Shown here piece after piece: positions 4,932-21,830 of a DNA stretch of 22,029 nt (positions are counted from its first letter, which is position 1; each line of letters begins with the position of its first letter). Below the pieces are notes generated by a model that did not search any database, was not told the DNA's origin, and worked only from the letters and a program-made list of their open reading frames with translations. Made by a program: the position numbers and the translations under genes. Origin of the DNA: Candidatus Atribacteria bacterium (GTDB lineage Bacteria; Atribacterota; JS1; SB-45; 34-128); NCBI GenBank assembly GCA_003451675.1, contig DMCY01000060.1:1-22029 (forward strand), read 5' to 3'.

Positions 4932-4974
4932 TAAAATGTAACATTTAGTGCCAGGCACTAAATGTTACATTTTA
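4932..4974. repeat. 43-bp perfect palindrome, core GTGCCAGGCAC
   Basis: Two perfect 21-base arms around a single central A (4953). The left arm starts taaaatgtaac and the core is agtgccaggcact. It covers the nadD stop codon (4965-4967), so the last residues of NadD (Lys-Met) come from it. On the minus transcript the hairpin is followed by TTTTATT overlapping the arm end, so it could also act as a terminator or mRNA-end structure between nadD and yqeK. A related sequence lies next to xerD (18500-18573). Confidence 0.9.
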
Positions 4975-9959: not shown

Positions 9960-10116
9960 ACTGTATATTTAAATAAACTGTGTACCTTACATCTTGCAAC
10001 TATTAACTGAAAACTAATTTCCTTATCTAAAAACTAAAAACCATAAACCTAAAACCAATTTTGTATTTTGTATTTATGCTAACGACTATTCACTATTCAC
10101 TAACGACTAATTCATT
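9960..10116. repeat. Heptamer arrays at the 3' end of the S55-like gene
   Basis: The rest of the 374-base gap 9719-10092 consists of 7-bp-phased words: about 9985-10020 (ttaactg type), 10025-10055 (aaaaact, taaaacc types) and 10086-10115 (ctattca, ctaacga types). The last stretch is identical over 30 bases to 17577-17606 at the 3' end of xerD. It overlaps the last seven codons of the S55-like gene. No gene is present in the gap. Confidence 0.7.
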
Positions 10117-11931
10117 TTTAATTGTAAAAGGAATTTCCAGGTATCCTTCAATAACCATATCTGTTTCGATCTTAGAAATTAGCAAGTTCTCTTCTTCTTC
10201 CTTTTTCTTTAGGCCATCCTCGGAAGTCTCTTTCTCAGAGGTTAATTCATCCGAATAAATTATTACTTCTCCAATAATTTGATTACCTCTTGACCTATCA
10301 GAAATATCCTTAAGGATCTCTTCCAAACTTTTGTAATCCTGTTTACCATCATTAACAAACTTTTCTTGTTGATTATCTAACTCTCCTCCTCCGTTTACCA
10401 TTAATAAAGCTTCGCCTGGAGGTGTATCGGAAGGAATCTGAATAATCATCGTCTTTTCAATTAAATCTCCCCGAAAAGGTCTAATCTTAATTTTCGCTTC
10501 AAGGTAATCTCCTGGCTTAATTGAGGAATCTTCTAATACAATTTCTTCTATCTTACCAATTTTCTTTTTATTATCTATTTTAATATCGATATCTATCTCG
10601 GTCAAATTTACCATCTCAAAATAATTGTTTACAATTAAATCAATAATCTCGGGTATCTCAGTGATAGCCTGAATAGCTATATCACTTGAACTATAGTACA
10701 TGTTCTTCCGGACAAGTTCTTGTCCTTCTCTCTCACCTTTTATTTCTATCTCTACCTGAGCGGTCCCTAATCCTATTCTATCCAGAGCATTATCTATAGC
10801 CTGCACAGCTATATTAGAAACCAGGGGCTCTAACAGATCATAATCATTAATTATCTGGACTCCTGTTTGGTAAGATAGTTCTGTATTAATATTCGTTACT
10901 TGTATTTTAAGCGGAATAATTCGAGGGTAAGAATTCAGTATCGCCAATATGCCTGCCTCTCTATCCTGGACAATCTTGCCTACTAAATTTAAAGGAGCAC
11001 CTAATTTAAAGGGCATAACCATATTAGGCAAACTATGATAGATATATACTTCAGAAAGAAGAAATGAAACTTCACCTTTTTTCAAAAAGGGGTGCCCTAA
11101 AGCCAGGACCTTATCTCCCTCTCGATAAGTTACTGTTCCGATAGAAGTAATATTGACATCTCCCCGAGTCAATTGTATTCCTATGGCAGAACCGGCTTCT
11201 ATTTTATTGGAAGGTCTTTCTCCTACCTCTTGAAAGTTTATATCGATATTTTCGCTAAACCCGATTCCCTGAATAGGCATAAGATTAAATTTTTTTAGAG
11301 AACTACTTAATCTCTCTAAAGTTCTACCTTTAATGCCGTTTATAATAATCGGTGAAACTATCGGATAAAAGAGAATTTCCTCTCTGTCTGCTAATTCTTG
11401 AAAACTGTTATTCTTCACAATATTTTTTACTATTATTTTATTTGTCTTTTCCTCTATAAAATACAAAGAATTATCAATTTTATATTCTTGTAATGCAGTC
11501 TGGTTATTTTCATAAGAGAGATTAAGTATTTCTAACATTTCTTGAATAGGGGTGATTAGACAGAGGTTGTGTTCGCTCATTTCCCAGGCATAAGATACAG
11601 CTCCAATCAATCTGTCATCTATATAGACCGGGCTACCACTCATTCCTTCTGAAATACCGCCACTCTCTTTAATCTTATCTCCACTTAAATTGGCTAATAT
11701 AAAATGACTGATTCCGCCTTCGCCTTTAACTATATCAATGATATCCACCTGAAAAGTCTCTATCTGTGTTCCGTAAAAAACGGTTTTTCCTATCCCCTTC
11801 ATCCCCGGCTTTATCTCTGAAACTGGCATAAAAATAGCCTGGCTAAAGGCTAAATTTATACCAGTACTAAATAAAATTAATAAAATAAAAATAATTTTTA
11901 TACAAATATTTCTATTTAATTTTATCTTCAT
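10093..11931 (-). CDS. Secreted SpoIVB/S55-type serine peptidase domain protein
   Basis: A 612-residue protein with an N-terminal signal peptide (hydrophobic residues about 11-30, ending AFS). Residues about 35-115 contain FMPVSEIKPGMKGIGKTVF and then SEGMSGSPVYIDDRLIGAV (Ser98 as probable nucleophile). Residues about 245-310 contain GTVTYREGDKVLALGHPF (His280). Both blocks match the S55 domain of SpoIVB, a secreted signalling peptidase of sporulation. Here the Ser block precedes the Gly-His-Pro block, unlike B. subtilis SpoIVB. The C-terminal 250 residues are of unknown fold and end in an acidic/Lys-rich stretch. No sporulation genes are nearby, so a sporulation role is not implied. ATG start with AAGGGG. 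The last seven residues are encoded by a dispersed repeat. Confidence 0.8.
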   Translation of the reverse strand: MKIKLNRNICIKIIFILLILFSTGINLAFSQAIFMPVSEIKPGMKGIGKTVFYGTQIETFQVDIIDIVKGEGGISHFILANLSGDKIKESGGISEGMSGSPVYIDDRLIGAVSYAWEMSEHNLCLITPIQEMLEILNLSYENNQTALQEYKIDNSLYFIEEKTNKIIVKNIVKNNSFQELADREEILFYPIVSPIIINGIKGRTLERLSSSLKKFNLMPIQGIGFSENIDINFQEVGERPSNKIEAGSAIGIQLTRGDVNITSIGTVTYREGDKVLALGHPFLKKGEVSFLLSEVYIYHSLPNMVMPFKLGAPLNLVGKIVQDREAGILAILNSYPRIIPLKIQVTNINTELSYQTGVQIINDYDLLEPLVSNIAVQAIDNALDRIGLGTAQVEIEIKGEREGQELVRKNMYYSSSDIAIQAITEIPEIIDLIVNNYFEMVNLTEIDIDIKIDNKKKIGKIEEIVLEDSSIKPGDYLEAKIKIRPFRGDLIEKTMIIQIPSDTPPGEALLMVNGGGELDNQQEKFVNDGKQDYKSLEEILKDISDRSRGNQIIGEVIIYSDELTSEKETSEDGLKKKEEEENLLISKIETDMVIEGYLEIPFTIKNELVVSE

Positions 11932-17234: not shown

Positions 17235-17258
17235 TTTTACTGCACCCCCCTAATTTCG

Positions 17259-17606
17259 TTGGTTAGTTAGCTGGTTACTTGGTTAACTGGTTTTAAGTTA
17301 CAAGATACAAAATACAAGTTTACGGTTTATTATATTTTATGTCATAGCTCTGATTCGTCAAAGCATGGCAATCTCGTTTTGGAGATTACTTCCCTGCTTT
17401 CGCTGGGGCAAGCTTTTATTACTCCTTGCAACGACGGAAATTATTATTCATTGTTATTTTCTCGTTATATTCTGGATCCTGGCTCCTGACTCCTGATTTC
17501 TATCTCTTATTTTCTTAACTAGCTAACCGGGTAACCAATTAACCAGCTAACTAAATGTATACGCTCTACGCTCTTCCTATTCACTATTCACTAACGACTA
17601 ATTCAT
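17259..17606. repeat. Composite spacer between xerD and punA
   Basis: The 368-base gap 17235-17602 holds no gene. GTTA-type octamers (17259-17298) lead into heptamers (aagatac type to 17320), then a hairpin element (17340-17435), then ggctcct/gactcct heptamers (about 17475-17497), TAAC-type octamers (17514-17555; ggtaacca), and a ctattca-type heptamer stretch (17577-17606) reaching the xerD stop codon. Confidence 0.8.
17340..17435. mobile_element. TCATTGCGAG-type hairpin element, degenerate copy
   Basis: Begins tgtcatagctctga and ends actccttgcaacgac; the terminal words are degenerate versions of tcattgcgag and ctcgcaatga. An inner stem gctctga/tcaaagc with a ttcg loop is followed by ggcaatctc. 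It is the most divergent of the three related copies. No open frame. Confidence 0.6.
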
Positions 17607-18499: not shown

Positions 18500-18573
18500 T
18501 TTATGACAAGTTTGGTGCCTGGCACTAAAGTTTACATTTATGACAAGTTTGGTGCCTGGCACCAAACTTGTCA
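18500..18573. repeat. GTGCCTGGCAC palindrome repeats between DUF3048 gene and xerD
   Basis: Positions 18541-18573 form a perfect palindrome of two 16-base arms around one central base (tgacaagtttggtgcc and its complement). A partial second copy (18503-18525) repeats tgacaagtttggtgcctgg in direct orientation, and 18516-18540 resembles the nadD-yqeK palindrome (ggcactaaa...ttacattta). The block fills the whole gap between the DUF3048 stop and xerD. Confidence 0.85.
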
Positions 18574-18577
18574 TTCT

Positions 18578-20068
18578 TTAGTACTGCATTTTTATATCCG
18601 AAGGAACAATTTGAATCCAAACATTTCCCGGAGTTAAAGCTATTCTATTCCCCTCTTTGTCTAAAAATTGGGTTCTTGCTCTTAGATCTGGCTTTTCCCA
18701 GGTAATTTCTGCTGAATTACCTTTAAAAAATAACAATCCTTTTCCCTTGCCAATGAAATCTACCGCCAGCCTACCCTCTTCGTCTATAACTTTAGTTCCG
18801 GCAAATTGAATTATAATATTATCTACTGCTATCTGCTCTTTAGTCTTGGCATCTATATGAGGTTCGCCGTTCATAAATCTTAAATATTTCATCGATTCAG
18901 GCTGGTATTTATAACTAACCGTATAAATACTGTTATAAGGAATTACAATAGAATCAGTTTCTCTACCGGTTAATCTTTCATTTATATCAATTTCAAATTG
19001 ATATTCCTGTTTTTTTATCATCTCAATATAACCCAATTTATTGGCTTCTTTTCTTAACTTTATGGTAGAAGTGTATAAATTATGAGGTGGTTTTCGGTCT
19101 TTAGACCTCCAGAAGGGCTGAAAATCTACAAATTCATTTATATCATCTATCTTCTCTTCTTTTATAAAATTATATGCTTCTTCACTCCCCCCAACATGGA
19201 CATAAATTGCCTGATGTTCTAATGATTTACCAACAAAGTAGGGTCTTGCACTTCTTACTGGTCCAACTTCTTCTGCGTTCTGGTTATAATAAATAGCTAA
19301 AAACCTGGTAATTCCACCTTCTGCTAAAGCTTCATAGACAATATTAGCTTTATCCAAACCGCTTTGCGGTCTGGCTCCTTCTGAATTTTCTACCATAATA
19401 GAAAGGGGTCTGCTGCCAAAAGGAGATTCTTTCTCCTTTACTTCCGGTAGAGTAGTAATTTCTCCGGGGTTTACTATAGTCCCATAAGTTGCTTCGACAT
19501 TTTCTTCTTCTTTTTCGCCTAAATTAACTTTAAGTTGGGATTCGCCCGGTTCTAATATTTCTCCCTTCACTTCTTTCCTGCTAGTTATAGTCTGCTTAAA
19601 ATATTCGGTAGAAACACTTATGTCCTCTCCTAAAGATTCTTTAATTTGAGCCGGAGGAACCACTGACACAGGCTCAGTTTCAATTTCAGGAGTTTTAACT
19701 TCTACCTTTGGTGCTCCCTCCGTTAATTCTTCCTTACTTACTACTTTTGTCTCAGTTACCTCTTCTTTTATCTTGGGTGGTTCCGGAGAAATCGGTTTAG
19801 CTTTTGGTTTAACTTCTAATTGAGCAATAGCTTTTTTCTCAGTAATCTCTGGTTTCTTAGATTCTGGCTGTTTTGGGGCAGGAATTTCCACCAGACTAAC
19901 CAAAATAAGCTCTTTTTCTGGTAAAGGCATCGTAAAATCAAAAGCGATCATATTTCCAAAAACATATAATAATATAACATTAAGTATGATAGAGATTAAA
20001 AACGATCTCCCCAAAAAGCTCTTTTTGCTCTGTTTTAAACGTTTTGTTCTATATCTGTTTATGGGCAC
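18578..20068 (-). CDS. DUF3048 protein with TonB-like N-terminal transducer region
   Basis: A 496-residue protein. A basic tail (1-21) precedes one transmembrane helix (about 22-42) containing Ser26-xxx-Asn30, comparable with the SxxxH motif of TonB helices. The segment ELILVSLVEIPAPKQPE (53-69) then leads into a Pro/Glu/Lys linker to about residue 210. Residues about 217-490 are DUF3048: SRPLSIMVENSEGARPQSGL, YEALAEGGITRFLAIYY, GPVRSARPYF, YVHVGGSEEAY, and a C-terminal part ending in LTPGNVWIQIV. DUF3048 is known from B. subtilis lipoprotein YerB and its function is not established. There is no TonB C-terminal domain. The start is GTG with GAGGTG about 10 bases upstream. exbB-exbD lie just upstream across a 378-base spacer. 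This fusion is discussed in the findings. Confidence 0.85.
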   Translation of the reverse strand: MPINRYRTKRLKQSKKSFLGRSFLISIILNVILLYVFGNMIAFDFTMPLPEKELILVSLVEIPAPKQPESKKPEITEKKAIAQLEVKPKAKPISPEPPKIKEEVTETKVVSKEELTEGAPKVEVKTPEIETEPVSVVPPAQIKESLGEDISVSTEYFKQTITSRKEVKGEILEPGESQLKVNLGEKEEENVEATYGTIVNPGEITTLPEVKEKESPFGSRPLSIMVENSEGARPQSGLDKANIVYEALAEGGITRFLAIYYNQNAEEVGPVRSARPYFVGKSLEHQAIYVHVGGSEEAYNFIKEEKIDDINEFVDFQPFWRSKDRKPPHNLYTSTIKLRKEANKLGYIEMIKKQEYQFEIDINERLTGRETDSIVIPYNSIYTVSYKYQPESMKYLRFMNGEPHIDAKTKEQIAVDNIIIQFAGTKVIDEEGRLAVDFIGKGKGLLFFKGNSAEITWEKPDLRARTQFLDKEGNRIALTPGNVWIQIVPSDIKMQY

Positions 20069-20094
20069 GAATTATTTACACCTCGATGTTAATT

Positions 20095-20440
20095 TGTTAG
20101 TTGGTTAGCTAGTTACTTGGTTAGTTGGTTTAATAATCTACCAATTGTCTAGTTTTTAGTTTGCTGTTATCAGTTGTCAGTTTATTATGCTTTATGTCAT
20201 TGCGAGCTCTGATTTATCAGAGCGTGGCAATCTCTGGTTAGGATTGCTTCCCCTGCTTTCGCTGGGGCAGGCTTGTATTACTCCTCGCAATGACAGAAAT
20301 TATAATTCCCTGTTATTCTCTTGTAATATTCTGAATTCTGGCTCCTGACTCCTGGTTTATATTTCCTTGATAAGAAATAGTTATCCTACTTGCACCTTGC
20401 AACCCGTAACTTGTCACTAATTACTCATTACTTATCACTG
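20095..20440. repeat. Composite spacer between exbD and the DUF3048 gene
   Basis: The 378-base gap 20069-20446 has no gene. GTTA-type octamers (ggttagct, agttactt) at 20095-20134 are followed by heptamers, a hairpin element (20195-20295), ggctcct/gactcct heptamers (about 20340-20355) and a final heptamer tract (about 20400-20440; cattact type). Unlike most spacers, no TAAC-type octamer arm is seen at the right end. Confidence 0.7.
20195..20295. mobile_element. TCATTGCGAG/CTCGCAATGA hairpin element
   Basis: Starts tgtcattgcgag and ends ctcgcaatgaca, perfect 12-base terminal inverted repeats. An internal perfect stem gctctga/tcagagc with a ttta loop follows the left end, then ggcaatctc, then the hairpin cccc...gggg at about 20250-20267. 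It has no coding capacity. It closely matches 21625-21738 in its right half and in the following gaaattataatt. Confidence 0.75.
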
Positions 20441-20446
20441 TTTTTC

Positions 20447-20857
20447 TTATTTCTTCTCCGCAGGCTGGGTGGCGATGGCAATTCTTTCCGCCCCTCCCTT
20501 TTTAAGCAAATCCATTACTCTGATTACCTTACCGTGAAGAACATTTTTATCTGCCTCTAAAACTACTATTTTTTCAGATTCCTCTTTTATTTCTGCAGCC
20601 ACACTTTCGGTAAGTTTTAAAGGGTCTATTAATTTTCCATTAAGATAAATTGTATTATTTTCGGTAATGGTTACGGTAATATTTTCCGATGACTCGGCGG
20701 CAGCAAAGTCTCCAGATGGCAAGTTAACTTTCACTCTATTTTCTAAATTCACAAAAGTGGTAGTCAGCATAAAAAATATCAATAAAAGAAAAACTACATC
20801 AATTAAGGGGGTTAGGTCAAAACGGGCACTCTTTTTATTCGGATGAGGAAACTTCAT
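20447..20857 (-). CDS. exbD: ExbD/TolR biopolymer transport protein
   Basis: A 136-residue single-pass inner-membrane protein, partner of ExbB in proton-motive-force-driven complexes. A short cytosolic N-terminus is followed by FDLTPLIDVVFLLLIFFMLT, with Asp20 in the position of the proton-path Asp of ExbD/TolR. The periplasmic part (about 40-130) has the usual INLNGK-like region (TITENNTIYLNGK) and VLEADKNVLHGKVIRVMDLLKKGGAERIAIAT. It overlaps the exbB end by 23 bases. The start ATG is supported by GGGTGG upstream. Assignment as exbD over tolR rests on neighbourhood only; no tolA/tolB is seen. Confidence 0.93.
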   Translation of the reverse strand: MKFPHPNKKSARFDLTPLIDVVFLLLIFFMLTTTFVNLENRVKVNLPSGDFAAAESSENITVTITENNTIYLNGKLIDPLKLTESVAAEIKEESEKIVVLEADKNVLHGKVIRVMDLLKKGGAERIAIATQPAEKK

Positions 20858-21515
20858 GTGCTATTTCACCACCCTGAATAATACTATTTTTAATAGTCCC
20901 ACTATTGTTAATTTCTTGATAAGTTAGAAGATCAATAAGTTCTACACAATTTACTTCCATATCTCTTATCAATTTATCTACTCGGTGAGATAAATAATTA
21001 TAAATCACGATAGTCGGTATAGCTATCGACAATCCAAAGGCAGTGGTAAGCAGTGCCTCAGAAATTCCTCCTGCCAGCACCTCTGGTTTACCTACTCCCA
21101 TAACCGCTATTACATTAAAGGCCTTAACCATACCAAATACTGTTCCTAAAAGCCCTAATAATGGAGTAATATTACCGATTGTGGAAAGCGTAGACAGATT
21201 TCTCTCTAATACAGGAATTTCCTGGTTGGCACTATCTTCAATCGCCTCTTTCATCTCATCCCGTCCCCGACCAAATTTCATTAGACCGGCCAACATAATC
21301 TTTGAAATAGGAGTAGGACTTTTACGACAGGCAGAAATAGCCAGTTCAATACTCCCTTTTTTAACTAAATTCTTAACTCGCAAAACAAATCTTTTACTTT
21401 TAGTTTTAATACTTTTTAGATAAAACATCCTCTCAAAGAAAATAGTAATTGCAATCAACGAACATATAAAGATGGGATACATTAAGAACCCACCTTTTTC
21501 AAAAACTTCTAACAT
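20835..21515 (-). CDS. exbB: ExbB/TolQ/MotA-family proton channel
   Basis: A 226-residue protein with three transmembrane segments (about 10-29, 106-128, 145-168). The core STIGNITPLLGLLGTVFGMVKAF (about 105-127) and SEALLTTAFGLSIAIPTIVIYNYL are the MotA/TolQ/ExbB channel signature, with the conserved threonines facing the proton path. A basic cytosolic loop (31-100) includes ALAISACRKSPTPISKI-like ExbB sequence. ATG with GAGGGGG about 10 bases upstream. With exbD and the following TonB-like protein it makes a candidate energy-transducing complex. Confidence 0.94.
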   Translation of the reverse strand: MLEVFEKGGFLMYPIFICSLIAITIFFERMFYLKSIKTKSKRFVLRVKNLVKKGSIELAISACRKSPTPISKIMLAGLMKFGRGRDEMKEAIEDSANQEIPVLERNLSTLSTIGNITPLLGLLGTVFGMVKAFNVIAVMGVGKPEVLAGGISEALLTTAFGLSIAIPTIVIYNYLSHRVDKLIRDMEVNCVELIDLLTYQEINNSGTIKNSIIQGGEIAHEVSSSE

Positions 21516-21544
21516 TGAATATCTGCCCCCTCTTCTTTTTATTA

Positions 21545-21830
21545 TTAGTTAGTTATATGGTTACTCAGTTAACTGGTTAATTTATTCGTTAGTATTAAAC
21601 ACAAATTTATGATTATCATATTTATATCATTGCGAGAGAAGTACCCAATATCATTTGAGCGCTTCTCGTGGCAATCTCAATTTGGAATTGCTTCCCCTGC
21701 TTTCGCTGGGGCAGGCTTGTATTACTCCTCGCAATGACGGAAATTATAATTCTATATTACTTTCTTGTAACATTCTGAATTCTGGCTCCTGACTTCCTCT
21801 TTTCTAACTACCTTGAATTTTTTTCTTTTT
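21545..21830. repeat. Composite spacer upstream of exbB
   Basis: The end region 21516-22029 (514 bases) has no convincing gene. GTTA-type octamers (ttagttag type) at 21545-21584 are followed by a hairpin element (21625-21738), ggctcct-type heptamers at about 21781-21795, and a region with a short inverted repeat ctcgata...tgtcgag (21840-21858). A 70-codon minus frame (21752-21964) ends in repeat sequence and is not accepted as a gene. Confidence 0.65.
21625..21738. mobile_element. TCATTGCGAG/CTCGCAATGA hairpin element
   Basis: Ends tatcattgcgag and ctcgcaatgac. The inner stem differs from the other copies (gagaagt...gcttctc in place of gctctga...tcagagc), but the right half (cttcccctgctttcgctggg) is the same as in 20195-20295. 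Keeping the stem while its sequence changes suggests that the hairpin structure matters. Confidence 0.75.

Follow-up and report, generated by a model that had tools for sequence, protein, structure and literature searches.

A probable TonB-like transducer ending in DUF3048, encoded beside ExbB/ExbD-type motor genes in Atribacterota

The DNA analysed here, referred to as the window, comprises 22,029 nt of contig DMCY01000060.1 (assembly GCA_003451675.1) from a Candidatus Atribacteria bacterium, a member of the Atribacterota, a little-studied phylum with an outer membrane. It carries an exbB-exbD pair followed by a gene for a protein that joins a TonB-like N-terminus to a C-terminal DUF3048 domain, hereafter the transducer. 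We observed this architecture, its conservation across the phylum, its linkage to the motor genes and a separate TonB system in the same phylum. Judged from these sequence data, the protein is probably a trans-envelope transducer of the TonB/TolA type, driven by the proton-motive force (PMF), in which a YerB-like DUF3048 serves as the C-terminal receptor-binding domain and which forms a conserved Atribacterota unit with a large tetratricopeptide repeat (TPR) protein, ExbB and ExbD. According to the original prediction for this DNA, a motor of the ExbBD type acts on a TonB-like helix whose linker leads to a DUF3048 end domain; conservation, linkage and the separate TonB motor argue for such an arrangement. 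The relevant features of the window are listed below.

18578..20068, minus strand: transducer gene (TonB-like N-terminus and DUF3048), 496 amino acids (aa); Pfam and orthologues
19943..20008, minus strand: predicted transmembrane (TM) helix, residues 21-42, with Ser26-x3-Asn30; AlphaFold2 and conservation
19880..19909, minus strand: D-box-like strand, residues 54-63 (LILVSLVEIP); pattern and spacing against the D-box of PMC10907165
19439..19879, minus strand: Pro/Glu/Lys-rich low-confidence linker, residues 64-210; AlphaFold2 and alignment
19028..19432, minus strand: DUF3048 N-terminal domain PF11258, residues 213-347; Pfam, 7.8e-49
18614..18943, minus strand: DUF3048 C-terminal domain PF17479, residues 376-485; Pfam, 5.5e-31
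20447..20857, minus strand: exbD (ExbD/TolR-type), 136 aa, Asp20 conserved; Pfam ExbD, 6.9e-32
20835..21515, minus strand: exbB (ExbB/TolQ-type), 226 aa, Thr125 and Thr158 conserved; Pfam MotA_ExbB, 1.3e-34
20205..20365, no strand assigned: dispersed palindromic repeat (CATTGCGAG arms) within the exbD-transducer spacer

The transducer gene starts with GTG, and an AGGTG ribosome-binding-like site was seen upstream by eye. A basic tail, Ser26 and Asn30, a VSLVEIPAPKQPE segment and a linker had been described for its product, and all were found in the 496-aa protein; the linker, put at about 140 residues, measured 148 aa from Pro63 to DUF3048. The complete DUF3048 domain claimed at the same time was confirmed, with PF11258 and PF17479 both over the Pfam cut-off, and together with the YerB fold these place the protein in the DUF3048 (YerB) family. 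AlphaFold2 placed a helix at residues 21-42 (block predicted local distance difference test values of 87-89), followed by low confidence from the helix end to about residue 210 and then a confident DUF3048 domain. Pfam and NCBIfam scans of the protein returned no TonB_C (PF03544/TIGR01352), only DUF3048 and chance matches, in keeping with the earlier statement that the canonical TonB end domain is absent.

Conservation was assessed in 50 Atribacterota genomes, mostly fragmented and without completeness values. DUF3048 matches were present in 46 genomes and full-length transducer orthologues (frames of at least 478 aa, including one truncated at the start) in 43. Among the others, G018 has a broken transducer frame, G036 a short DUF3048 paralogue plus a fragment, probably of the transducer, at a contig end, and G039 a short paralogue only. 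When the 43 orthologues and the window protein were aligned, Ser26, Glu61 and Pro63 were unchanged in all 44 sequences, position 30 was Asn in 43 and His in one (L045), and position 49, N-terminal of the D-box-like strand, was Pro in 27. In a non-redundant set below 80% identity (22 of the 44), Ser26, Glu61 and Pro63 were still invariant, and position 30 comprised 21 Asn and one His. A protein search added further His-type transducers (P0121 and P0122-P0124), of which P0121 is probably the same protein as that of L045 because the two are 99% identical.

Mutagenesis of E. coli TonB reportedly showed that Asn can replace His20, a report that was not found in the open-licence literature searched. 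The natural exchange of Asn and His at position 30 (L045, P0121-P0124) fits a TonB-type contact. According to two structural papers, Ser16 and His20 of E. coli TonB (Ser18 and His22 of TolA) pack on TM1 of ExbB/TolQ (PMC12215075, PMC12905483). E. coli TonB has its D-box at residues 46-49, between prolines; side chains along it are buried alternately, and it pairs with the ExbD dimer (PMC10907165). This pattern and spacing are matched by V57-x-L59 with Pro63 in the transducer, a putative ExbD-binding strand in which V57 is 27 and L59 is 29 residues past Asn30. Linker length was 143-150 aa in 21 of the 22 non-redundant orthologues and 135 aa in L045, with conserved positions near 175-202. For comparison, colicin uptake in E. 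coli is sustained with a disordered linker of 127 residues, a length said to suffice for spanning the periplasm (PMC10666116).

The Ser-x3-Asn/His pattern was rare outside the transducers, occurring in 3 of 157 control open reading frames listed mechanically from the same loci for a hydrophobic N-terminus. A whole-protein search (best 120 of 123 matches) added 114 DUF3048 proteins. Among these listed matches, the pattern was found in all 10 proteins with a long N-terminal extension and in none of the 104 lacking one, which match about 53-65% of the query. A first orthologue search, limited to the best 120 of 3,302 matches, gave the strict Asn-type pattern in 101 of the 120; 13 proteins with long and six with shorter N-termini did not match. 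Some of the pattern-lacking proteins were inspected: P0060 starts downstream, and P0101, a metagenome protein in which DUF3048 continues into ExbB although the natural gene order is different, resembles a chimera made during assembly. When the fusion was sought beyond Atribacterota with the N-terminal 110 residues of the His-bearing member as query, 302 candidates yielded only its own kin, three proteins within a limit of E = 1; as the two whole-protein listings end at 120 matches, the fusion may also occur elsewhere. Fusion proteins were not recovered as one clean clade in a DUF3048 tree.

Other DUF3048 proteins are of a different kind. Twelve of the 50 genomes (L051-L062) carry a short paralogue of 311-340 aa, and a few more carry fragments; these paralogues have a signal-peptide-like start (by eye), no Ser-x3-Asn helix and no exbBD in the fetched locus. 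In the 104 further homologues the N-terminus is short and, where inspected, similar to a lipoprotein anchor or a single-TM anchor, and among the matches listed by the whole-protein search the domain also occurs under Bacillota, Actinobacteria and Patescibacteria names. The helix-less proteins lack the whole N-terminal extension and are therefore different proteins, and we found no instance of this DUF3048 protein that lacks the helix and is not linked to exbBD, an observation that had been named in advance as refuting the prediction. As for the family elsewhere, one source has yerB in a core sporulation list, marked 0A, as a putative lipoprotein (PMC3416734), and in another a figure legend assigns a gene called 'yerB (COG1470)', perhaps of the same family, to cell adhesion and biofilm formation (PMC10849945).

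We next consider the motor genes. The exbD gene lies just upstream of the transducer gene in 36 of the 44 loci, and in the other eight the contig ends within 478 nt. The original prediction held that the 378-bp spacer in the window weakens the operon link. This needs correction, since that length is atypical: spacing is 10 nt or less, or the genes overlap, in 18 of the 36 pairs, and it reaches at least 200 nt in seven (the window, L001, L006, L068, L070, L077 and L083). The gap in the window is due in part to the dispersed repeat at 20205..20365. The reported exbB/exbD overlap is real, with 23 nt shared. In 28 of 28 testable loci, exbB is preceded by a gene for a TPR-type protein (1,019-1,248 aa) that has a TolB-N/FlgT-like head, and all four genes are present on the megabase contigs of G008 (3.1 Mb) and G028 (2.3 Mb). 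In L048 (1283-7157) and L082 (726-6554), exbB-exbD occurs twice, on either side of the TPR gene and with identical family scores, as a tandem duplication or an assembly artefact. Downstream, most loci share a xerC/xerD-type recombinase gene (that of the window scores as XerD), pnp and mtnA; one group of loci has murA and mreB.

By Pfam cut-offs, a pore Asp and two pore Thr, the motor proteins belong to the MotA/TolQ/ExbB - ExbD/TolR motor superfamily. Asp20 of ExbD and Thr125, Thr158 and TM1 Ser19 of ExbB, which by motif and spacing are the likely equivalents of the E. coli residues, are conserved in the transducer-linked motors. E. coli structures show an essential Asp and two Thr in the motor pore (PMC12215075, PMC12905483). 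At the place of the TM1 Trp, transducer-linked ExbB has an aliphatic residue and TonB-linked ExbB Leu (8) or Phe (1). Both ExbB (35 transducer-linked, 9 TonB-linked) and ExbD (37 and 9) separated into two clean groups. With NCBIfam models the window motor scored 116.6 of 221 bits for tolQ, 80.3 of 127.3 for tolR and 79.3 of 206.2 for exbB. TolQ/TolR models outscored ExbB/ExbD models in all three transducer-linked pairs scanned, and likewise in the one TonB-linked motor scanned, though with scores under the equivalog cut-offs.

Residues 1-80 were compared as profiles with hhalign, using 43 of the 44 transducers as the main group (all except L050, whose start is missing), 8 of 11 named members of an OP9-like subgroup and 33 of the 104 control proteins. 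The transducers scored 18% and 40% in the two directions against the phylum's TonB N-termini, in a comparison where unrelated DUF3048 controls reach 26%, and the His-type transducers scored 30% and 15%. Unrelated DUF3048 N-termini gave 18.6% and 26% with the main and His-type groups, and the remaining control comparisons 0.2-5%. As the profile comparisons did not settle homology, the case for TonB likeness of the N-terminus is based on its motif and spacing, its topology and the linkage to motor genes.

Several results weigh against a TonB/TolA-type transducer with a Tol-like role. The TonB values of 18-40% fall partly within the range of unrelated DUF3048 N-termini (26% or less), the OP9-like subgroup reached about 2.8% against TonB, and a PDB search with a hidden Markov model of the N-terminus, at an E-value limit of 10, matched neither TonB nor TolA chains. 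Four of the 50 genomes, for which no completeness values are given, had no DUF3048 match at all. G003, G035 and G038 have a full-length transducer, at a contig end, and no ExbB/ExbD match anywhere in the assembly. The window motor missed the NCBIfam equivalog cut-offs for tolQ, tolR, exbB and exbD, and two further transducer-linked pairs were also below them. The TolB-N-like head of the TPR protein is no proof of a Tol role because the fold is common to FlgT, CsgG, LpoB and others. Finally, we know of no partner or activity for the DUF3048 fold.

The weak hhalign comparison with TonB would suit accidental neighbours, that is, an ordinary signal anchor at the N-terminus and exbBD genes that merely share the operon. 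So would the conservation of xerD, pnp and mtnA downstream, because of which conserved gene order alone is weak evidence. Against this, Ser and Asn/His are invariant in an otherwise variable helix (compare 3 of 157 control frames), exbD and the transducer gene overlap in several loci, Asn and His exchange at position 30, and the motors form separate groups. We regard this explanation as highly improbable and, given the conservation seen in 43 genomes, rejected accidental linkage.

The unit is not a Ton system. In this phylum the real TonB is a separate gene: TonB_C was found in 10 of the 50 genomes (loci L092-L101), all 10 of these proteins have SxxxH, an exbB-exbD pair adjoins tonB in nine, as family matches at these positions confirm, the tenth (L093) lying at a contig end, and frames resembling TonB-dependent receptors (TBDRs) occur near tonB. 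A true tonB on the transducer's own exbBD, a second finding that would have spoken against the prediction, was not seen; TonB lies beside a second exbBD in nine of 10 loci, and the motors group apart. Nine of the 10 TonB genomes also carry the full-length transducer, and TonB_C matches are absent from 34 of the 43 genomes that encode a full-length transducer. This last count, with the TonB-like topology and motor, would suit a stand-in for TonB in import, whose DUF3048 would energise uptake by binding a channel or receptor of the outer membrane. TBDR plugs, however, were found in only 13 of the 50 genomes, all 10 TonB genomes included, and plug and transducer lie on different contigs in all 12 genomes having both. 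No receptor gene was recognised near the transducer unit, and the TPR gene stands upstream of its exbB in 11 listed loci, where some unlabelled frames are unidentified and no search for non-TBDR channels was made. We consider an import function unlikely.

For the TonB/TolA-type transducer, we infer contacts, stoichiometry, force, partner and function as follows. An ExbB5-ExbD2 motor would conduct protons, the Ser-x3-Asn helix would dock on ExbB, the D-box-like strand would pair with the periplasmic dimer of ExbD, and the linker of about 145 residues would cross the periplasm. The DUF3048 domain would then pull on or release a partner, most likely the TPR protein, which is apparently secreted, or the cell wall. 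Alternatively, DUF3048 might sense the periplasm or cell wall and regulate proton flow through the motor via the helix, as a sensor or brake that delivers no force. Contacts between helix and ExbB are suspected to signal to the proton channel (PMC12215075, PMC12905483), and the N-termini of the 104 other DUF3048 proteins are short and, where inspected, anchor-like. The near-constant linker length, its Pro/Glu-rich composition and the D-box-like strand suit a transducer instead, and it would be unusual for a motor to lack any other output gene in its vicinity, unless the TPR protein plays that part. We consider such a sensor rather unlikely.

As to what a force transducer would do, envelope maintenance or division of a Tol-like kind, rather than nutrient uptake, is the most likely role, although we propose it tentatively. 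The unit could be an undescribed, phylum-wide Tol-like machine that draws on the PMF to shape or hold the envelope. Its parts would be the TPR protein, carrying the TolB-N-like head, the TolQR-like motor, and the transducer, with its DUF3048 domain gripping the cell wall or the TPR protein; this, too, we offer as a possibility. The TPRs of one TPR-protein member scanned passed the tol_pal_ybgF cut-off, and the top Foldseek match of the TPR-protein head was LpoB. TolB_N was found in none of the 50 genomes, Omp85 in 48 and OmpA-domain matches in 27, the latter on other contigs than the unit except in G028, where they lie about 0.9 Mb apart. TolB and Pal are not encoded with the motor unit as in tolQRA loci, and the unit contains no Pal-type gene. 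We presume that Atribacterota belong to the diderm Terrabacteria. Members of that group are reported to lack Pal and to be tethered by OmpM (PMC10628300). A secretion or surface-movement device resembling Agl/Glt, to which the TPR protein would contribute a periplasmic or outer-membrane component, appears very unlikely. The layout of TPR, tolQ/tolR-like genes and a non-TonB transducer is that of the vWA family, for which gliding is suggested (PMC12204202); nothing was found in favour of such a device here, where no search for secretion or gliding genes was made.

Some further observations concern the surroundings of the unit. In another group of loci, lgt (prolipoprotein diacylglyceryl transferase) overlaps or abuts the transducer gene, as in L071 (8641-9408), the one locus of the five that was scanned; frames occupy the same place in L048, L066, L075 and L082. 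Within the window, a 612-aa protein with a SpoIVB-type peptidase S55 domain (10093-11931) adjoins mreB; Atribacterota are not known to sporulate. Three intergenic gaps hold copies of a 161-nt dispersed repeat (17346-17506, 20205-20365 and 21649-21809), two of them 81% and 69% identical to the first, with CATTGCGAG/CTCGCAATG palindromic arms and a 26-nt core identical in two copies; such arms are also present in the L001 and L006 spacers. Beside each copy lie degenerate 8-nt tandem units like GGTTAGTT (17247-17301, 20085-20139 and 21533-21595). Palindromes resembling TTTGGTGCCTGGCACCAAA occur twice in tandem at 18500-18573, between the transducer gene and xerD, and once at 4944-4962. The true start of xerD is probably downstream, because the listed frame begins inside these elements (that of L006 starts MKKLEETLECF).

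A TonB-like arm with a DUF3048 end beside motor genes suggests an undescribed membrane-energy machine working in the envelope. The earlier statement that no system of this kind was known holds for the DUF3048 end, for which we found no description in the open-licence literature searched; it needs qualifying for non-TonB ends in general, as Williams-Jones et al. (2025, PMC12204202) put forward vWA proteins as force transducers of TolQR-like motors. The main text of that paper contains 'DUF' and 'YerB' 0 times, and no paper on a motor-linked DUF3048/YerB transducer of Atribacterota was found in the open-licence literature, supplements excluded. If the interpretation is right, DUF3048 would be a further end domain, beside TonB_C/TolA_C and vWA, for force transducers of 5:2 proton motors, and the helix-linker cassette would prove modular. 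DUF3048, which one paper of the literature searched mentions by name, would gain a concrete functional setting and a first cellular role, and the unit would be a candidate for envelope cohesion in a diderm phylum where no TolB was found in 50 genomes.

Among known proteins, YerB (a Bacillus subtilis lipoprotein, PDB 2PSB) and the other DUF3048 proteins share the end domain, and the 104 examined have no Ser-x3-Asn/His helix. TolA/Tol-Pal resembles the unit in that the motor scores nearer TolQ/TolR (as does the TonB-linked motor) and a neighbour has a TolB-N-like fold; it differs in its TolA C-terminal domain, not found here, in TolB_N and a Pal-type gene, likewise not found, and in the equivalog cut-offs missed by our motor. 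The vWA transducers have a TonB/TolA-like helix and linker with an unrelated end domain and a TPR gene beside the motor genes, as here (PMC12204202), but their end domain is vWA rather than DUF3048 with its YerB fold, the transducers described here have Asn for His, and one exbD stands in place of a pair. With TonB-ExbB-ExbD the unit shares a basic tail, a single TM helix with Ser-x3-(His/Asn), a D-box-like strand about 27-29 residues on, a Pro-rich linker and exbBD genes; it differs in a transducer that ends in DUF3048 instead of TonB_C, in Asn for His except in one lineage, and in a motor group of its own.

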